Both the position numbers and the translations under genes were made by a program. From contig MKTA01000015.1 of the NCBI GenBank assembly GCA_001897515.1, positions 124,001-188,000 on the forward strand: a stretch of 64,000 nucleotides of DNA. The letters run 5' to 3'. This document shows, piece by piece, positions 26,997-59,498 of the stretch. Under the pieces are notes generated by a model, which did no database searches, was not told the origin of the DNA, and saw nothing but the letters and a program-made list of their open reading frames with translations. This DNA is from Bacteroidetes bacterium 41-46. Lineage in GTDB: Bacteria; Bacteroidota; Bacteroidia; Bacteroidales; UBA932. Numbering within the stretch: the first letter of the stretch is position 1; each line of letters opens with the position of its first letter.

Positions 26997-27675
26997 ATGC
27001 TGTAAGCCTTGCCCAGTTTATCCATCCGTTTATTGAATTAGCCAGATAGAAAAACCACATTATAACCATCAATAGTGAGTGCTCTTCACCGTTGGCAAAG
27101 GCAACACTCCACATTATGATGCTAATAATATTCACGGCAACCCAAAGCATCCATTGCTCCATAAAAGCCCTGACCATAAGAAGCATTGCAATAACAGACA
27201 ATACTGTTGTTGCAGAGTCTTTAAGAGGCTGAGGATCTCCAAAGTAGTCAAGTATTATGGCAACAACCAAAACTAAAGCAGCAGATATTGAAAACAACAA
27301 AACTCTCTGTTTTATTGTAAATCTCCTACTGACAATTGTAACGGACTCCTTGTTCTCTCGTTTTTTTAACCACAGGAACCACCCGACGAACTGCATTGGA
27401 AGATAGTATAGTGCATTAAGCGCAGCGTCTCCATAAAGCTCAGCTTTATAAGATATTAAAGCATATAAAGCAACATTTACCAGTCCGAATAAATAGTTGA
27501 GAATATTCCTCTTTGCCACTAGAACGACGCAAATAACACCGGATATGCCAGCAATTGAACCCAGCAAGTCAAGCGTATCCGTCAGAGCCATATGTAAAAT
27601 ATTGGAGATGATGACGCCCAGAATCAGAAACCAGTCAAACGGCTTTAGTGTGTTTACCCTTTTAAATTTTATCAT
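26962..27675 (-). CDS. PnuC-family vitamin transporter (copy 1)
   Basis: The 237-residue protein has about seven membrane helices. It carries PnuC hallmarks such as NYLFGLVNVALYALISY, ELYGDAALNALYYLPMQF with VGWFLWLKKRE, and the second-half NIISIIMW. PnuC proteins are facilitators for nicotinamide riboside, thiamine or riboflavin. The substrate cannot be read safely from sequence. The ATG overlaps the stop of the upstream propeller/barrel gene (27672-27675), so the two are one operon, and the barrel could be the outer-membrane partner. Confidence 0.87.
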   Translation of the reverse strand: MIKFKRVNTLKPFDWFLILGVIISNILHMALTDTLDLLGSIAGISGVICVVLVAKRNILNYLFGLVNVALYALISYKAELYGDAALNALYYLPMQFVGWFLWLKKRENKESVTIVSRRFTIKQRVLLFSISAALVLVVAIILDYFGDPQPLKDSATTVLSVIAMLLMVRAFMEQWMLWVAVNIISIIMWSVAFANGEEHSLLMVIMWFFYLANSINGWINWARLTAFKDQTQTQNRL

Positions 27676-52761: not shown

Positions 52762-53415
52762 CTATCTGTTTTCTCTCCACATCTTTTTCCACATTGCAAA
52801 GCCAAAGAAGGCAAGTACCAGGTAACCTGCACTTACCATTGGAAGGAATGCGAGCCCTGCCAGTAAATAGAGAGTAATATTGGTTATATTTACAGTAAAC
52901 CACACTGCCCAGCAGTCCAGTTTTTTCTGGGCGGACAGGTATTGGGCTGTGAGTATAGCTCCTGTAACAAAGGCATCCAGAAACGGCCTCTTTGCCTCGC
53001 TGAATACAGAAGGGAAGAGATTGTCCAGATAGGTTAAAACAATACCCCAGAGAGCCATGAATGCAATCATAACAAATATATGAAACACCCTTTGTCTGTT
53101 GCTTAGCAAGGTTATCTTAAGCTGGTGCCTGCTATTCTCCTCCTCCTTTGCCGGATGAGTCCACCTCCAGTGTCCAAACAGATTAATGGCAAATGAAACA
53201 GGCTGGACAAGCATACTGGAATAGAGACCTTTCTGATAAAAAAGGATAAAAAGGAGTATGTTGTATATGTACCCTACCCAAAAATTGGCAACCTTTGCCT
53301 TTGTGGCAAGGTAAACACAAGCCAGCCCTGTAGCAACCGATAGAGTCTCAACAAGACTTACGCCCTGACCGCCAATTGAAAATAATATGTTGTCTATACT
53401 AAATATGGTCTCCAT
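52762..53415 (-). CDS. PnuC-family transporter (copy 2), inside the suf cluster
   Basis: The 217-residue protein has about six to seven membrane helices. PnuC features are GYIYNILLFILFYQKGLYSSM, shown here as YNILLFILFYQKGLYS, then NLFGHWRWTHP, and in the second half CWAVWFTVNITNITLYLLAG. The GHWRW motif and low similarity to copy 1 point to another subgroup, maybe with a different vitamin substrate. It sits 12 bases after sufB and 18 before sufC, so it is an operon member between two subunits of one complex. Confidence 0.82.
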   Translation of the reverse strand: METIFSIDNILFSIGGQGVSLVETLSVATGLACVYLATKAKVANFWVGYIYNILLFILFYQKGLYSSMLVQPVSFAINLFGHWRWTHPAKEEENSRHQLKITLLSNRQRVFHIFVMIAFMALWGIVLTYLDNLFPSVFSEAKRPFLDAFVTGAILTAQYLSAQKKLDCWAVWFTVNITNITLYLLAGLAFLPMVSAGYLVLAFFGFAMWKKMWRENR

Positions 53416-53427
53416 CTATCAATTATA

Positions 53428-54861
53428 TTATCCTACGCTCCCCTCCAGAGTAACTTGCAACAGCTTCTGAGCCTCAACCGCAAACTCCATAGGCAACTGG
53501 TTCAAGACCTCTTTTGCATATCCGTTAACTATCAGACCGACAGCATCCTCTGTCCCAATTCCCCTCTGCTGGCAATAGAAAAGCTGATCTTCCGAGATCT
53601 TTGATGTAGTTGCCTCGTGCTCAAGAATAGCTGTCTCATTCTCATTCTCAATATAAGGGAATGTATGGGCTCCGCACCTGTCTCCCAGCAGGAGAGAGTC
53701 ACACTGAGTAAAATTTCTTGAGTTTTCAGCATTAGGAAGAATTTTAACCAAACCTCTGTATGAGTTCTGGCTTACTCCGGCTGATATACCCTTGCTTACA
53801 ATCCTGCTTCTTGTGTTTTTTCCTATATGGATCATCTTAGTACCTGTATCGGCCTGCTGATGGTGATTTGTTACAGCTACTGAGTAAAACTCTGATATTG
53901 AATTGTCTCCTCTTAAAATTGTGCTTGGGTATTTCCATGTTATGGCAGACCCTGTCTCAACCTGAGCCCAGAAGAGTTTGCTGTTCTCTCCTTTACATAT
54001 ACCCCTTTTCGTTACGAAGTTGTAAATACCTCCCCTTCCCTGCGAATCGCCTGGATACCAGTTCTGTACTGTAGAGTATTTAACCTCAGCATCCTTCATT
54101 ACAACAATTTCAACTACTGCAGCATGAAGCTGATTCTCATCTCTCTGAGGAGCGGTACACCCCTCCAGATAGCTAACATAGGAGCCCTCTTCTGCAACAA
54201 TTAACGTCCTCTCAAACTGACCTGTTCCCTTAGCATTTATTCTGAAGTAGCTTGAGAGCTCCATAGGGCACCTGACACCCTTAGGTATATAGCAGAAAGA
54301 GCCATCCGAAAATACGGCAGAGTTTAGAGCAGCATAGAAATTGTCGCCATAAGGAACTACAGTTGCAAGGTGCTTTTGTACCAGGTCGGGATAATCCCTC
54401 ACCGCCTCTGAGAATGAGCAGAATATTATTCCCTTCTCCGCCAGAGACTCTCTGAAGGTGGTTTTTACTGAAACTGAGTCAAATACAGCATCAACAGCTA
54501 CCCCTGCAAGTACATTTCTCTCATCAAGGGGAATACCGAGTTTGTCAAATGTAGCCTGAAGCTCAGGATCAATCTCACCCCCCTCTTTAAATTTTTTTGG
54601 TGCCGCAAAATATATAACCTCCTGAAAATCTATGGGAGGAATATTTAGATGCGCCCACGAAGGCATCTTCATTGTGAGCCATTTCCTGTAAGCCTTGAGT
54701 CTGAAGTCAAGCATCCACTCAGGCTCCCCCTTCTTCTCAGAGATTCTTCTTATTATATCCTCGTTGAGCCCCTTGGGGAAATACTCCAACTCAACGTCAG
54801 TCTCAAAGCCGTGCTCATATTCGGCCTCTGTTACCTTCTGAATTATATCATTTTCACTCAT
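53428..54861 (-). CDS. sufB: Fe-S cluster assembly protein SufB
   Basis: The 477-residue protein has full length. Features are [22 protein letters not shown], shown here as [38 protein letters not shown], and the C-terminal [20 protein letters not shown] with the conserved Cys. It is the main Fe-S scaffold of the SUF system. A TAACTTTG box at 54869-54876 would start the mRNA about 3 bases before the ATG. SufS and SufE are not in the window. Confidence 0.97.
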
Positions 54862-54868
54862 CGTGGCG

Positions 54869-54876
54869 CAAAGTTA
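54869..54876 (-). promoter_or_regulatory. -7 box for sufB, implying a near-leaderless mRNA
   Basis: The minus strand reads TAACTTTG followed by C. The last G is 8 bases before the sufB ATG at 54861, so the start falls around 54864. Confidence 0.45.
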
Positions 54877-54888
54877 TATCATTTAAAC

Positions 54889-54896
54889 TATTTTTG
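54889..54896 (+). promoter_or_regulatory. -7 box for the ThiL-like gene
   Basis: The plus strand reads TATTTTTG followed by C. The implied start near 54901 excludes the TTG at 54894 and supports the ATG at 54915. Confidence 0.5.
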
Positions 54897-54914: not shown

Positions 54915-55940
54915 ATGGCCTCTAAAGAAAACATTCACCCCCAAAGGACTCCTATAGAAAAAATCGGTAAGTCAAAGCTCATAGAGAGGCTGCTCTCCGG
55001 TCAGGATAACTCTCTCTGTGACAACGTATCATCATATCAAAACACAGGTGGCAGTCTGTTTACCTCTCACACATTACTGTTGGAGGGCACTGATTTTAAT
55101 CTTGTTTACAACCCAATAAAGCATCTGGGTTATAAGGCTGTAATAACTTCACTCGGCCCTATCTATGCCTCACTCCATACCCCTGTTGCAATCTCAGTAA
55201 GAGTCGGCCTCTCCGCCAGATTCTTTACTGAGGATGTTGAGGAGCTATGGGAGGGGATGAGCGCAGCAATGAGAGAGCACAATATTGAGGTCTCCGGAGT
55301 TGATCTGCAACCATCCTTAACGGGACTCACCATCTCTGTTTCAACACTGGGAAAACAACAGAAGGAGCTCTTTGTTCAAAGAAAAAAGGTTGTTTCAGGA
55401 GATCTCATCTGTATATCAGGCTCTCCGGGAGCTGCATTTATGGGTCTTCAGGTACTTGAGAGAGAGAAGAGAGCCTTTGAGGGAAAAGATGGACTGCAGC
55501 CAAAACTTGAGGGATACAAGTTTATTCTTAAAAGGTACCTCTCGCCTGAGCTTGACAAAACTCTGCACGAAACTCTACTTAACAATGAGATAATACCATC
55601 TGAAGGGGAATTTATTGCTAAGGGGCTCTCGGATGCAGTTAAAAGGGTTTGCCACAGAAACGGTCTGGGAGCTCAAATATACCTGGATAAAATTCCAATT
55701 GCCTCACAAACTTTCAATATGGCAGATGAGCTTGGAATTGATGCAACTACCGCTGCTCTTAACGGGGGGGACGACATGCTCCTTCTATATGTTATTCCAC
55801 TTTCAGATTATGAAAAATTGAGCAAAGAGCTACCTGCACTAGATATAATTGGACACTTGACATCCGCCGGGAGCGGAACAATGCTGGTAACTCCGGATGG
55901 TACTCCTATTCCCTTAAAAGCTCAGGGTTGGAGCGATTGA
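54915..55940 (+). CDS. ThiL-like (thiamine-monophosphate kinase / AIR-synthase fold) protein lacking catalytic aspartates
   Basis: The 341-residue protein aligns along its length with ThiL: LVYNPIKHLGYKAVITSLGPIYA, shown here as NPIKHLGYKAVITSLGPIYA, then VSGDLICISGSPGAAFMGLQVL, and AALNGGDDMLLL (ALNGGEDYELL in ThiL). Three magnesium/phosphate sites differ. The N-terminal GIGDDA block is replaced by a stretch around YQNTGG. STDT becomes TSHT. The DxSDG motif is FIAKG (55611-55625). One Asp of GGDTT is kept (SGVDLQ). The frame is intact, so this is not decay. It may be a pseudo-kinase or have another substrate. Confidence 0.75.
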   Translation: MASKENIHPQRTPIEKIGKSKLIERLLSGQDNSLCDNVSSYQNTGGSLFTSHTLLLEGTDFNLVYNPIKHLGYKAVITSLGPIYASLHTPVAISVRVGLSARFFTEDVEELWEGMSAAMREHNIEVSGVDLQPSLTGLTISVSTLGKQQKELFVQRKKVVSGDLICISGSPGAAFMGLQVLEREKRAFEGKDGLQPKLEGYKFILKRYLSPELDKTLHETLLNNEIIPSEGEFIAKGLSDAVKRVCHRNGLGAQIYLDKIPIASQTFNMADELGIDATTAALNGGDDMLLLYVIPLSDYEKLSKELPALDIIGHLTSAGSGTMLVTPDGTPIPLKAQGWSD

Positions 55941-58900
55941 CCACTCAAGCCCCTGCTGGTCAAAATACTCCAGCAGAGAGTCGGTTAATGCTATAGAGTA
56001 TTTAATTGAGACGAACTCAACTGATATCTGACTCTCATAATCAAGCACCTTAACCACAATTCTGGTAGAACCTTTATTGTCTTTCAGTTTAGCAAGGAGC
56101 TCTTTTCTGAAGTTTCTGTCAACCATTGTAACGGGAAGGGTAAGTGATATACTCTTTATAAAATCCTCCCGTGTATTTGCAAGCAGTCTCATGCTTCTGA
56201 CTTTAAGCTCACAGTCCACCTGTTTAGCAGGGTCGTCGCCATTCTGCTGGAATCCATACTTTTGAAGAACAGCCACCTTAATCAGTAACGGAGTACCCGG
56301 ATGGGTGTATTTCATAAAGTTTTCGTAGTCCTTTCCAAAAAGTGCAAACTGAATAGAGCCGTTGAAATCCTCAACGGAGAAATTTACAAATGGCCTTCCT
56401 GTCTTTGTCATTGAGGATTTTGAGTTGGTAACCATCCCTGCAATAACCATCTCTTTTCCTCTCAGGTTTGGATTCTGCATCGCCTGGGCTGCATACTCAG
56501 CTGCCTCAGCGATAGTGTTAGTGGTAAATCTGCTAACCTCAAACCTGAACTGGTCAAGAGGGTGAGCTGAGAGAAACATGCCCACAAGCTCCTTCTCTCT
56601 CTTGAGTATCTCCATCTTATCCACATCCATCGCCACAGGAATATCGGGCCTGACAGGCTTTATGCTCTCATGGGTTCCAAACAGAGAGTTGCCCAGAGCA
56701 ATAGTGTCATTCTGAAACCTTTGTCCATATTTATAGAGTATCTCAAGAAAGGGTTCATCTTTCGCTCCCGGAGCAAGATACTGCTCTCTTTTTATTGGCT
56801 CAAAACAGTCAAATGCACCTGCATAAACCAGCGACTCAATTGTCTTTTTACCTACAACTGAGAGATTTACCCTCTCTACAAAATCAAAAATAGATTCAAA
56901 CTGACCACCGCTCTCCCTGGTAGCAACAATAGTCTCCACAGCTCCAAGTCCCACCCCTTTTATACCGGCCATACCAAATCTGATGTTTCCCTTTTTATTG
57001 ACCGTAAACTTATAGTCACTCTCATTCACATCAGGACCCAGAACAGAGATACCCATTCGTTTGCACTCATCCATATATTTGGTAATCTCATCCATGTTGT
57101 CCAGGTTCCTGCTTAGGGTTGCCGCCATAAACTCAGCAGGATAGTGGGCCTTAAGCCATGCAGTCTGATACCCTATCCATGCGTAGCATGTGGAGTGAGA
57201 TTTATTAAAGGCATACTGGGCAAAGGCCTCCCAGTCCTTCCATATCTTTTGAAGAATTTCAACTGTGTGACCGTTTCCGGTCCCTCCCTTAATAAATTTC
57301 TCCTTAAGGCTGTCCATCATAGCCTTTATCTTCTTTCCCATAGCCTTTCTCAGACCATCGGCCTCACCCTTTGTGAAACCTGCCAGCTTCTGCGAAAGAA
57401 GCATCACCTGCTCCTGATAAACAGTAATACCGTAAGTGTCCTCTAAAATACCCTCCATCTCCTTAAGATCGTACTCTATCTGTCTCAGCCCCTTTTTTCT
57501 GTCAACAAAATCCGGGATATAATCCATTGGGCCAGGCCTGTATAGGGCATTCATGGCAATGAGATCCTCAAACCTTGTAGGCTTCAGCTCTCTAAGCCAT
57601 TTTCTCATTCCGTCACTCTCAAACTGAAAAGTTGCAACACTCTCTCCCCTGCTGAAAAGCTCGAATGTCTCTCTGTCATCTATGGGAATTGCGTCAATAT
57701 CAATTTCAACCCCTTTTGACTTTCTTATATTCTCTACAGCCTCTTTCATAATAGAGAGAGTCTTCAGACCCAGAAAGTCCATCTTAAGCATCCCCACTTT
57801 CTCTATTTGAGAGCCCTCATACTGAGAGACCCATATATCCTCGCCGGTATCCTTATCTTTTGCAATTCCTATGGGTATATACTCTCTCAGATCGTCCCTG
57901 CCGATAATTATTGCGCATGCGTGAACACCGGTATTCCTTACATTACCCTCAAGCTTAGAGGCAAACTCCATTGTATCCCGAACAAGTGGATCTGGCGATT
58001 CAAAAGCCTCTTTAATCTCTGGTACAAATTTTCTGCAGTTCTCCAAATTTACGTCAGGTGCCTTTCCGCTGCTATCTGCAGGAAATTTGTTGGGTACCAG
58101 CTTGGCAAGTCTGTCTGACTCCGGAAGTGGAAGATTTTGAATTCTTGCAATGTCTCTGATGGCACTCTTTGCGGCCATTGTTCCAAAGGTAATCACGTGA
58201 GAGACATGCTCTTTACCATATTTATCTTCAACATACTTAAGAACCTTTGAGCGGCCATCGTCATCAAAATCAATATCAATATCCGGCATGGATATTCTGT
58301 CTGGATTCAGGAAACGCTCAAAAAGGAGATCATATTTAAGAGGATCAATATCAGTAATTTTCAAACAATAGGCCACCACAGAGCCTGCTGCAGAGCCACG
58401 TCCGGGGCCTACCCATACCCCCATACCTCTCGCTGCTGCAATAAAATCCTGAACAATAAGGAAGTAATCCGGAAAACCCATTTTCTTTATTGTTGCAAGC
58501 TCAAAATCTATGCGTTCTGTATGCTCCTCTTTAAGCTCACCATATCTGGCCTTTGCCCCCTCATATGTCAAATGCCTCAAATAGTCGTCAGAATTATCAA
58601 AGGCATCCGGGATGGGGAAGTGAGGCATAATTGGGTCTGAATCAATTTTATAAACCTCAACCTTGTTGGCAATCTCAACAGTGCTTTCTATAGCTTGAGG
58701 GATATCTTTAAAGATTATCTCCATTTCTGACTGAGTCTTTAGATACTCCTGCTTTGTGTAGCGAAGACGGTCAGGATCTGAATAGTCTGAATTTGTTGTC
58801 AGACAAATAAGCCTGTCATGCGCCTCTCTGTCCTCCATAGCAACAAAGTGGACATCATTTGTCGCCACAACCTTTACGCTGAACTTATCTGCCAGCTGCA

Positions 58901-59498
58901 AAAGAACCCTGTTTACCCTCTCCTGAAGCTCAAATGTTGATCTGTCGGCACCCTCTACATCTGTCTGGTGCCGCTGAAGCTCCAGATAGTAATCATCTCC
59001 AAACAGCTCTTTATACCACTTAACTGTGCTTTCAGCCTCAGCAATGTTTCCTGCCATAATTGCCCTGGACACCTCTCCTGCCAGACATGCAGAGGTACAG
59101 ATCAGGTTTTGATGATATCTCTCAATTAACTCTCTGTCAATTCTGGGTTTATAATAGTTTCCCTCAATAAATGCGTATGATGAGAGCTTAATTAAATTCT
59201 TGTACCCCTCCAGGTTTTTTGCCAGCAGTACCAAATGGTAGCTACTCTGATCCTCCCTTCCCCTTTTGTCAAACCTGCTCCCTTTTGCTACATAAAACTC
59301 ACTTCCGACGATAGGTTTAACCGCAGGAGTCTTCTCTGCTACCTCAAGAAACTCCTTAACTCCATACATGTTTCCATGGTCTGTGATTGCAAGTGCTATC
59401 TGGTTATCTTTAGCAGCTCTTGCAAATAGTTTTTTTATAGATGCGGCGCCATCCAGGATTGAGTACTGGGTGTGAACATGGAGGTGGACAAAGGGCAT
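55914..59498 (-). CDS. dnaE: DNA polymerase III subunit alpha
   Basis: The 1194-residue protein has an N-terminal PHP domain (HLHVHTQYSILDGAASI, ITDHGNMYGVKEF). The polymerase core follows, with GRGSAAGSVVAYCL and the catalytic acidic motif MPDIDIDFDDDGR (about 405). YRPGPMDYIPDFVDRK, the helix-hairpin-helix KGVGLGAVETIV and an OB domain (about 1000-1090) complete it. It is the replicative polymerase. The 3' end overlaps the convergent ThiL-like gene by 27 bases. Confidence 0.98.
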   Translation of the reverse strand: MPFVHLHVHTQYSILDGAASIKKLFARAAKDNQIALAITDHGNMYGVKEFLEVAEKTPAVKPIVGSEFYVAKGSRFDKRGREDQSSYHLVLLAKNLEGYKNLIKLSSYAFIEGNYYKPRIDRELIERYHQNLICTSACLAGEVSRAIMAGNIAEAESTVKWYKELFGDDYYLELQRHQTDVEGADRSTFELQERVNRVLLQLADKFSVKVVATNDVHFVAMEDREAHDRLICLTTNSDYSDPDRLRYTKQEYLKTQSEMEIIFKDIPQAIESTVEIANKVEVYKIDSDPIMPHFPIPDAFDNSDDYLRHLTYEGAKARYGELKEEHTERIDFELATIKKMGFPDYFLIVQDFIAAARGMGVWVGPGRGSAAGSVVAYCLKITDIDPLKYDLLFERFLNPDRISMPDIDIDFDDDGRSKVLKYVEDKYGKEHVSHVITFGTMAAKSAIRDIARIQNLPLPESDRLAKLVPNKFPADSSGKAPDVNLENCRKFVPEIKEAFESPDPLVRDTMEFASKLEGNVRNTGVHACAIIIGRDDLREYIPIGIAKDKDTGEDIWVSQYEGSQIEKVGMLKMDFLGLKTLSIMKEAVENIRKSKGVEIDIDAIPIDDRETFELFSRGESVATFQFESDGMRKWLRELKPTRFEDLIAMNALYRPGPMDYIPDFVDRKKGLRQIEYDLKEMEGILEDTYGITVYQEQVMLLSQKLAGFTKGEADGLRKAMGKKIKAMMDSLKEKFIKGGTGNGHTVEILQKIWKDWEAFAQYAFNKSHSTCYAWIGYQTAWLKAHYPAEFMAATLSRNLDNMDEITKYMDECKRMGISVLGPDVNESDYKFTVNKKGNIRFGMAGIKGVGLGAVETIVATRESGGQFESIFDFVERVNLSVVGKKTIESLVYAGAFDCFEPIKREQYLAPGAKDEPFLEILYKYGQRFQNDTIALGNSLFGTHESIKPVRPDIPVAMDVDKMEILKREKELVGMFLSAHPLDQFRFEVSRFTTNTIAEAAEYAAQAMQNPNLRGKEMVIAGMVTNSKSSMTKTGRPFVNFSVEDFNGSIQFALFGKDYENFMKYTHPGTPLLIKVAVLQKYGFQQNGDDPAKQVDCELKVRSMRLLANTREDFIKSISLTLPVTMVDRNFRKELLAKLKDNKGSTRIVVKVLDYESQISVEFVSIKYSIALTDSLLEYFDQQGLEWSIAPTLSF

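Follow-up and report, generated by a model that had tools for sequence, protein, structure and literature searches.

The window, by which we mean the whole stretch of 64,000 nucleotides that was analysed, contains an uninterrupted open reading frame running from an ATG at 54915 to a stop codon at 55938-55940. Its predicted product of 341 amino acids, hereafter called P0001, resembles thiamine-monophosphate kinase (ThiL) over its full length. The gene and the features around it are as follows.

54915..55940, plus strand: gene of a predicted ThiL-fold pseudokinase, 341 amino acids, D130 being all that is left of seven catalytic acidic positions
54889..54896, plus strand: -7 box TATTTTTG of Bacteroidota type, 26 bases 5' of the pseudokinase ATG
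54869..54876, minus strand: -7 box TAACTTTG for the suf genes, which run in the divergent direction
53428..54861, minus strand: sufB, the divergent neighbour, given as gene context
52762..53415, minus strand: gene of a PnuC-family transporter inside the suf cluster (PF04973, 8.4e-42), given as gene context
55914..59498, minus strand: dnaE, the convergent neighbour, the 3' end of which overlaps the last 27 bases of the pseudokinase gene

The box TATTTTTG lies at -24 to -26 from the ATG in all 24 loci compared (23 of the window's genus and locus L013), and the divergent suf box TAACTTTG is kept in the same 24 loci. A plus-strand box matching TAnnTTTG, which we take to be the Bacteroidota -7 consensus, was present in 30 of the 33 loci examined, compared with 0-12 % when the same 70 bases were simply shuffled. 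In the window's genus, as in several further genera, the PnuC-family gene sits between sufB and sufC. The window's genome has three PnuC homologues in total, and another PnuC-family gene is located in the window at about 27007-27567 on the minus strand (G000:C15:151007-151567).

The NCBIfam profile TIGR01379 (thiL) matched P0001 over residues 23-340 with a score of 133.9 bits, lower than the curated cut-off of 184.15 and in this respect unlike ThiL. The AIR synthase N-terminal domain was the sole Pfam domain over cut-off, and ThiL ranked first in sequence searches of the PDB. P0001 has in common with ThiL (TIGR01379; 5CM7/5DD7, 3C9T, 8YKU) its whole length, a predicted two-domain fold and the segments KHLGYK, LEREK, NGG[DE]D and AQGW. 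It differs from ThiL in the absence of the GDD loop, read by motif, and in changes to the Mg-binding aspartates, to DxSDG, to the adenine-contacting threonine and to the TMP-contacting histidine. The [ST]TD motif is replaced by SHT (residues 51-53) and DxSDG by FIAKG (residues 233-237), and the KHLGYKA and ALNGGDD segments are retained. In addition, the aspartate of SDI is replaced by P82, GGDT reads GVDL, with positions 129 and 131 changed and D130 kept, and the histidine of EGxHF is replaced by D60. When the metal- and ATP-binding residues were assessed together (GDD, [ST]TD, SD[IV], GGDT and DxSDG), only one of the seven acidic positions was found to be kept. An earlier note on this DNA, made from its letters alone, had described an intact frame, a full-length ThiL homologue, a promoter box before the gene and the losses of GDD, STDT and DxSDG next to retained KHLGYKA and ALNGGDD; all of this was borne out, and the changes at P82, V129/L131 and D60 had gone unnoticed in it.

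The ThiL of Pseudomonas aeruginosa (PaThiL) is described as having Asp30, Asp47, Asp75 and Asp211 as strictly conserved metal ligands, with Asp122 as a further one; adenine and ribose are contacted by Thr123 and Gly121, and TMP by His54 and Tyr189 (PMC13254938). A second source reports that the loop Ile23-Gly24-Asp25-Asp27 of ThiL touches the ATP ribose-phosphate and that the active site sits in the dimer interface (PMC6416309). The PaThiL residues taken from the former were assigned to positions of P0001 by motif, and HMMER alignments of further ThiL chains lent support. So placed, Asp30 has no equivalent, Asp47 corresponds to T53, Asp75 to P82, Asp211 to F233, Gly121 to V129, Asp122 to D130, Thr123 to L131, Ser213 to A235, Asp214 to K236 and His54 to D60, and none of the four metal aspartates Asp30, Asp47, Asp75 and Asp211, nor Thr123, Gly121 or His54, appears to be retained. 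The change to D60 matters because His54 of PaThiL is among the residues that this source places in contact with TMP (PMC13254938).

A model of P0001 was built with AlphaFold2 on alignment A2, which has 37 rows from named loci: the window protein, 16 degenerate rows and 20 others. The model had a pLDDT of 92.0 and a pTM of 0.89, the weakest region being that of the lost GDD loop, with a block mean of 60 at residues 31-40. Its best match with VIA-align was the ThiL of A. baumannii (5cm7_A), with Z 31.1 and 2.5 A over 291 residues. P0001 is thus predicted to have the ThiL fold along its full length; as A2 included canonical ThiL rows, the model shows that the sequence fits this fold and is not an independent discovery of it. 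The superfamily fold is predicted to be shared with HypE, SelD and PurM of the AIR synthase superfamily, of which HypE came next after ThiL (Z about 25-27, up to 27.3, with 13-17 % identity in the structural alignments) and SelD and PurM followed (Z about 19-23). By both sequence and structure, ThiL outranks all three as a match to P0001.

Sixty genomes, that of the window (G000) and 59 others, were searched, 25 of them from the window's genus. The gene was found in 23 of these 25, the two without it being 80 and 82 % complete, and all 23 sequences are degenerate, keeping one or two of the seven acids. Searches of the 25 genomes found thiamine pyrophosphokinase (TPK) in every one and ThiE in none. 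Among the best 80 of 582 confirmed named loci, a sample of the nearest sequences, 16 are degenerate. In a tree of 108 rows, calculated by a quick method with the motif columns removed, 41 degenerate rows formed one branch with a long stem (SH-aLRT 100), which lies close to Rikenellaceae among the canonical ThiL of Bacteroidales. After more genera had been added, 48 rows remained together with support 100, every one keeping 0-2 of the seven acids. Near-identical rows and rows of second-type ThiL were dropped from the trees. P0001 shares descent with Bacteroidales ThiL, as seen from the nested position of its clade and from a locus beside sufB that is common to some canonical ThiL. Degenerate or partly degenerate ThiL (one to five of the seven acids) also occurs in genera g41, g43, g45, g47 and g49 of the window protein's family in Bacteroidales (f1). 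Many independent losses within f1 were considered, and this idea was dropped as a single origin was not rejected (AU p 0.285).

The clade has acquired conserved residues of its own. When 47 degenerate rows were compared with 79 canonical rows (L047, L048, L049 and L050 being left out), D60 and G81 were invariant in the former, in place of H and S in canonical ThiL; W112, L129, L131, F233, K202, Y208, D310 and P327 were newly conserved in 83-98 % of the 47 rows. K/R at position 19 is also newly conserved. In the stretch replacing GDD, no conserved aspartate was seen in the alignment by eye. Among 55 rows of the f1 main clade, D60 is present in all, H52 in 31 and D130 (Asp122 in PaThiL) in 50; the GG[DE]D motif is kept and the C-terminal aromatic residue mostly kept.

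Ratios of dN/dS (Nei-Gojobori) were 0.007-0.215 in 13 within-genus pairs of degenerate sequences, the values being rough for several pairs with dS over 1, and 0.006-0.129 in six named pairs of canonical type. Median ratios, calculated from pairs with dS 0.05-2 only (12 of 28 pairs in g45, 9 of 15 in g43, 13 of 15 in g37 and all pairs in the others), were 0.09-0.12 for g43, g45 and g49, f1 genera with a degenerate or partly degenerate protein. The median for g37 was 0.116, and those for the canonical g44 and g9 were 0.088 and 0.147, respectively; the one pair of g47 gave 0.102. Pairs with infinite dS give no usable ratio. The clade gene is retained under purifying selection. The earlier note had already argued that selection keeps the gene and had proposed a tree as a check for a conserved clade; both hold, and the clade-wide and convergent nature of the loss, set out below, was not foreseen in it.

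Of 14 degenerate f1 regions that were extended, six of them from the window's genus, 13 have suf genes close by, with sufB mostly divergent. In 14 of the 16 named degenerate loci no suf gene was seen in the flanks examined, some of which are short. Divergent sufB also stands beside canonical ThiL in five of 64 named canonical loci (L072, L074, L085, L098 and L129; Draconibacterium and Maribellus are examples of genera with this arrangement), about 3 kb away in canonical locus L120, and in eight regions of the f1 genus g45. In the second family described below (f2), sufB was recorded, as presence only, beside canonical L242 and L263, and divergent sufB was not seen in the partly short flanks of canonical f1 ThiL in G031, G032 and G071. 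The site next to sufB is probably an old thiL locus, kept by some lineages, which supports vertical descent and weakens the case for a suf-specific function. The suf linkage was accordingly dropped as a clue to a new function, since some canonical ThiL show the same linkage.

The genome of the window (2.47 Mb, 34 contigs, 93 % complete) gave one match in a search with P0001 and two with the ThiL profile, the P0001 gene and G000:C15:16708-17352. The latter, a candidate for a second ThiL, was rejected since by eye it looks like a selenide, water dikinase (SelD). No ThiE was found in this genome, at 93 % completeness, and one TPK was. No TPP riboswitch above the gathering score was found in the 64-kb window; the genome has one, upstream of an ORF of 739 amino acids, which by eye appears to be a TonB-type receptor, and of a PnuC-family gene, a putative PnuT judging from its place. 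Thiamine uptake by OMthi-pnuT-tnr3 is described as common in gut Bacteroidetes (PMC5613172). With TPK present, TPP is obtainable from thiamine without ThiL, and most likely the organism imports thiamine and phosphorylates it via TPK, with no need for a TMP kinase. The earlier note had named, as the case that would speak against its reading, that this be the only ThiL of a thiamine-prototrophic genome. P0001 is the only ThiL found; as to prototrophy, no ThiE was found and TPK is present, in an assembly that is 93 % complete. Only half of the named case thus applies, and the reading is not refuted by it.

The relation between TPK and ThiL was followed through 149 genomes of f1, several of which, in this census and in genera g7, g9, g37, g41, g43, g44, g45 and g47, were placed by genus or profile score. 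The 14 genera of the main clade comprise 81 genomes, and a degenerate copy was read in 80 of them, each with 0-2 of the seven acids; G090, of the same genera, yielded an intact ThiL only. TPK is missing from eight of the 80 (G025, G028, G065, G073, G074, G083, G123 and G143). Seven of them have an additional, separate ThiL that is of the intact type and belongs to another lineage; it is cut by a contig end in G073 and has a masked stretch in G025. In six of the seven the separate gene is within 1 kb of thiE, the two lying on different contigs in G025, and in G028 (L164 3587-7493) a thiD-thiL-thiE-thiM operon, read by eye and from profile matches, occurs alongside the pseudokinase. The exception is G143 (88 % complete), which has the degenerate copy and in which neither TPK nor a separate ThiL was found. 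None of the 72 TPK-bearing clade genomes has a ThiL above the cut-off, and the association of TPK absence with a separate ThiL gave a Fisher p of 2.5e-9, a value that ignores relatedness. The switch is seen even within genera: G123 (g39) and G074 (g4) have an intact ThiL and no TPK, and the other ten genomes of g39 and the other ten of g4 have TPK.

Outside the main clade, TPK was found in none of the 11 genomes of g44, seven of which have an intact ThiL (the others being incomplete or having fragments), and it was not found in the partly degenerate f1 genomes G100, G128 and G183 (89, 59 and 62 % complete). Both TPK and intact ThiL are present in g8, g9, g48 and part of g37 within f1, and in G049, G053 and G058 of other families, so TPK does not always lead to loss. 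A second ThiL piece in G012 (L048/L165, C28) was set aside as a likely contaminant contig, the piece and its neighbours being, by eye, unlike the rest of the genus.

For a second Bacteroidales family, f2, 40 genomes yielded 37 sequences for reading. The full set of seven acids is present in 14 of these, and the other 23 keep two to five (loci L047, L249, L251, L253, L254, L256-L262 and L264-L274). After these sequences had been read, the link with TPK was predicted for f2 ahead of the TPK search, the TPK of G036 being already known, and TPK was found in 21 of the 23 acid-poor genomes compared with one of the 14 with all seven acids (Fisher p 3.8e-7, again ignoring relatedness). The exceptions are G216 and G218, acid-poor and with no TPK found at 88 and 65 % completeness, and G209, which has both an intact ThiL and TPK. 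A single clade of f1 and f2 degenerate rows was rejected (AU p 0.000253) in a test on a 53-row quick tree with 12 f2 and 13 f1 rows, which was framed after the trees had been seen and left out g43 and, from the group held together, g47 and g49. The f2 lineage has lost the same residues independently of f1. The replacements themselves are similar: E19 is K or R in 55 of 55 f1 main-clade rows and in 23 of 23 f2 rows, the aspartate of TTD is K or R in 35 of 55 and 19 of 23, Gly129 of GGDT is hydrophobic in 55 of 55 and 23 of 23, and T131 is L, I, V or M in 55 of 55 and 21 of 23. There is no convergence at the SD aspartate and the EGxHF histidine, each mostly kept in f2 (21 of 23), or at M86 and N87 (22 and 23 of 23). 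Where dS was usable (g57, g62 and g65), degenerate f2 pairs had dN/dS of 0.024-0.116; in g59 the ratio was 0.28-0.51, indicating weaker constraint.

Clade-wide loss of metal and ATP ligands, purifying selection and the pattern of TPK and second ThiL together make P0001 a well-supported pseudokinase, one of the three options that the earlier note had offered. Its option of a new kinase is unlikely, with the residues of the ATP side gone, and its option of a regulator may apply, as argued below from sequence comparison. That the protein retains TMP kinase activity through a rearranged active site is something to which we give little credence: the predicted fold is intact and D130, GG[DE]D and, mostly, the C-terminal aromatic residue are kept, but the four metal aspartates and the adenine and ribose contacts are lost, and seven of the eight TPK-lacking genomes with a degenerate copy have a separate intact-type ThiL. 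The mostly conserved D130 could nevertheless permit residual chemistry. Simple decay of a thiL relic is the least probable reading of all. TPK would make ThiL dispensable, and in other genera the residues are lost in a graded manner, yet for the window's clade this reading is already contradicted by dN/dS within the range of canonical ThiL, intact frames, new invariant residues and the conserved promoter box.

TPK-linked convergent loss combined with continued selection implies that the protein does something else. One such activity would be that of a different enzyme, for example a hydrolase freeing thiamine from TMP for use by TPK. In 24 genomes of the clade genera g4, g6, g10, g11, g40 and g46, ThiE and TPK occur without an intact ThiL over the cut-off, and TMP would there need to be dephosphorylated before use by TPK; the old substrate region, moreover, carries the invariant D60 (55 of 55) and the common H52 (31 of 55). 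Against this, the protein is also kept in 48 TPK-bearing genomes of the clade genera in which no ThiE was found, the whole genus of the window among them, the metal ligands are lost, and no known hydrolase motif was seen by eye or in the Pfam and NCBIfam scans, so that we regard a hydrolase as unlikely. Somewhat less likely still is a role outside thiamine metabolism, in the service of the adjacent SUF iron-sulphur system or PnuC-type transporter: the nearby suf genes in 13 of 14 extended f1 regions and the conserved divergent boxes would fit it, but 14 of 16 named degenerate loci have no suf gene in their flanks, some of them short, and, with the same divergent arrangement at five of 64 named canonical loci, the linkage does not set the pseudokinase apart.

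The explanation we favour, and consider reasonably probable, is that a ThiL pseudokinase has been kept after TPK took over, probably as a metal-free, ligand-binding regulator or scaffold. The gene would be the vertically inherited thiL of a Bacteroidales lineage, probably still at an old thiL locus beside sufB. As the cell would make TPP directly from imported thiamine via TPK, TMP kinase activity would no longer have been needed and the contacts with metal, phosphate and adenine would have been lost, the two-domain protein being kept for a second, non-catalytic role. In the most likely mechanism, the protein would lack kinase activity, the ThiL dimer would still form and would bind, independently of metal, a ligand that is phosphorylated or of thiamine type, and the protein may regulate TPP supply or act as a scaffold for it. 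The residues in common may form a metal-free ligand pocket, as the changes in charge suggest; lysine at the Asp47 position is not universal, P0001 having T53. It is further possible, though we propose it only tentatively, that a second, non-catalytic function is present in Bacteroidales ThiL or easily gained by it and alone keeps the protein once TPK replaces the kinase, and that separate lineages converge on a metal-free pocket (K/R19, often K/R for a Mg-binding aspartate, and GGDT changed to x-L-D-L/I), the proteins then being a new type of sensor for thiamine phosphates or nucleotides.

Some pseudoenzymes persist after their activity is no longer needed, having lost catalytic residues but retained the fold and purifying selection. 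The P0001 clade resembles this class, including the active counterpart elsewhere in some genomes, and its catalytic residues are lost throughout (0-2 of seven acids kept in 80 of 80 census copies). No report of a ThiL pseudoenzyme was found in the literature searched, which lay mostly outside subscription papers and preprints. P0001 is considered here a pseudoenzyme derived from ThiL and is not filed as ThiL.

ThiL is usually treated as a plain housekeeping enzyme, the presence of which predicts the source of vitamin B1 of a gut bacterium. In many genera, clear ThiL homologues are not expected to make TPP, and annotation by homology can therefore miscall the pathway. ThiL/ThiN is listed among the pathway signatures of thiamine metabolism in one source (PMC6593275), and signatures of that type would be misled in the degenerate clade if ThiL were counted by homology. 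The independent, TPK-linked losses provide a testable set of natural replicates.
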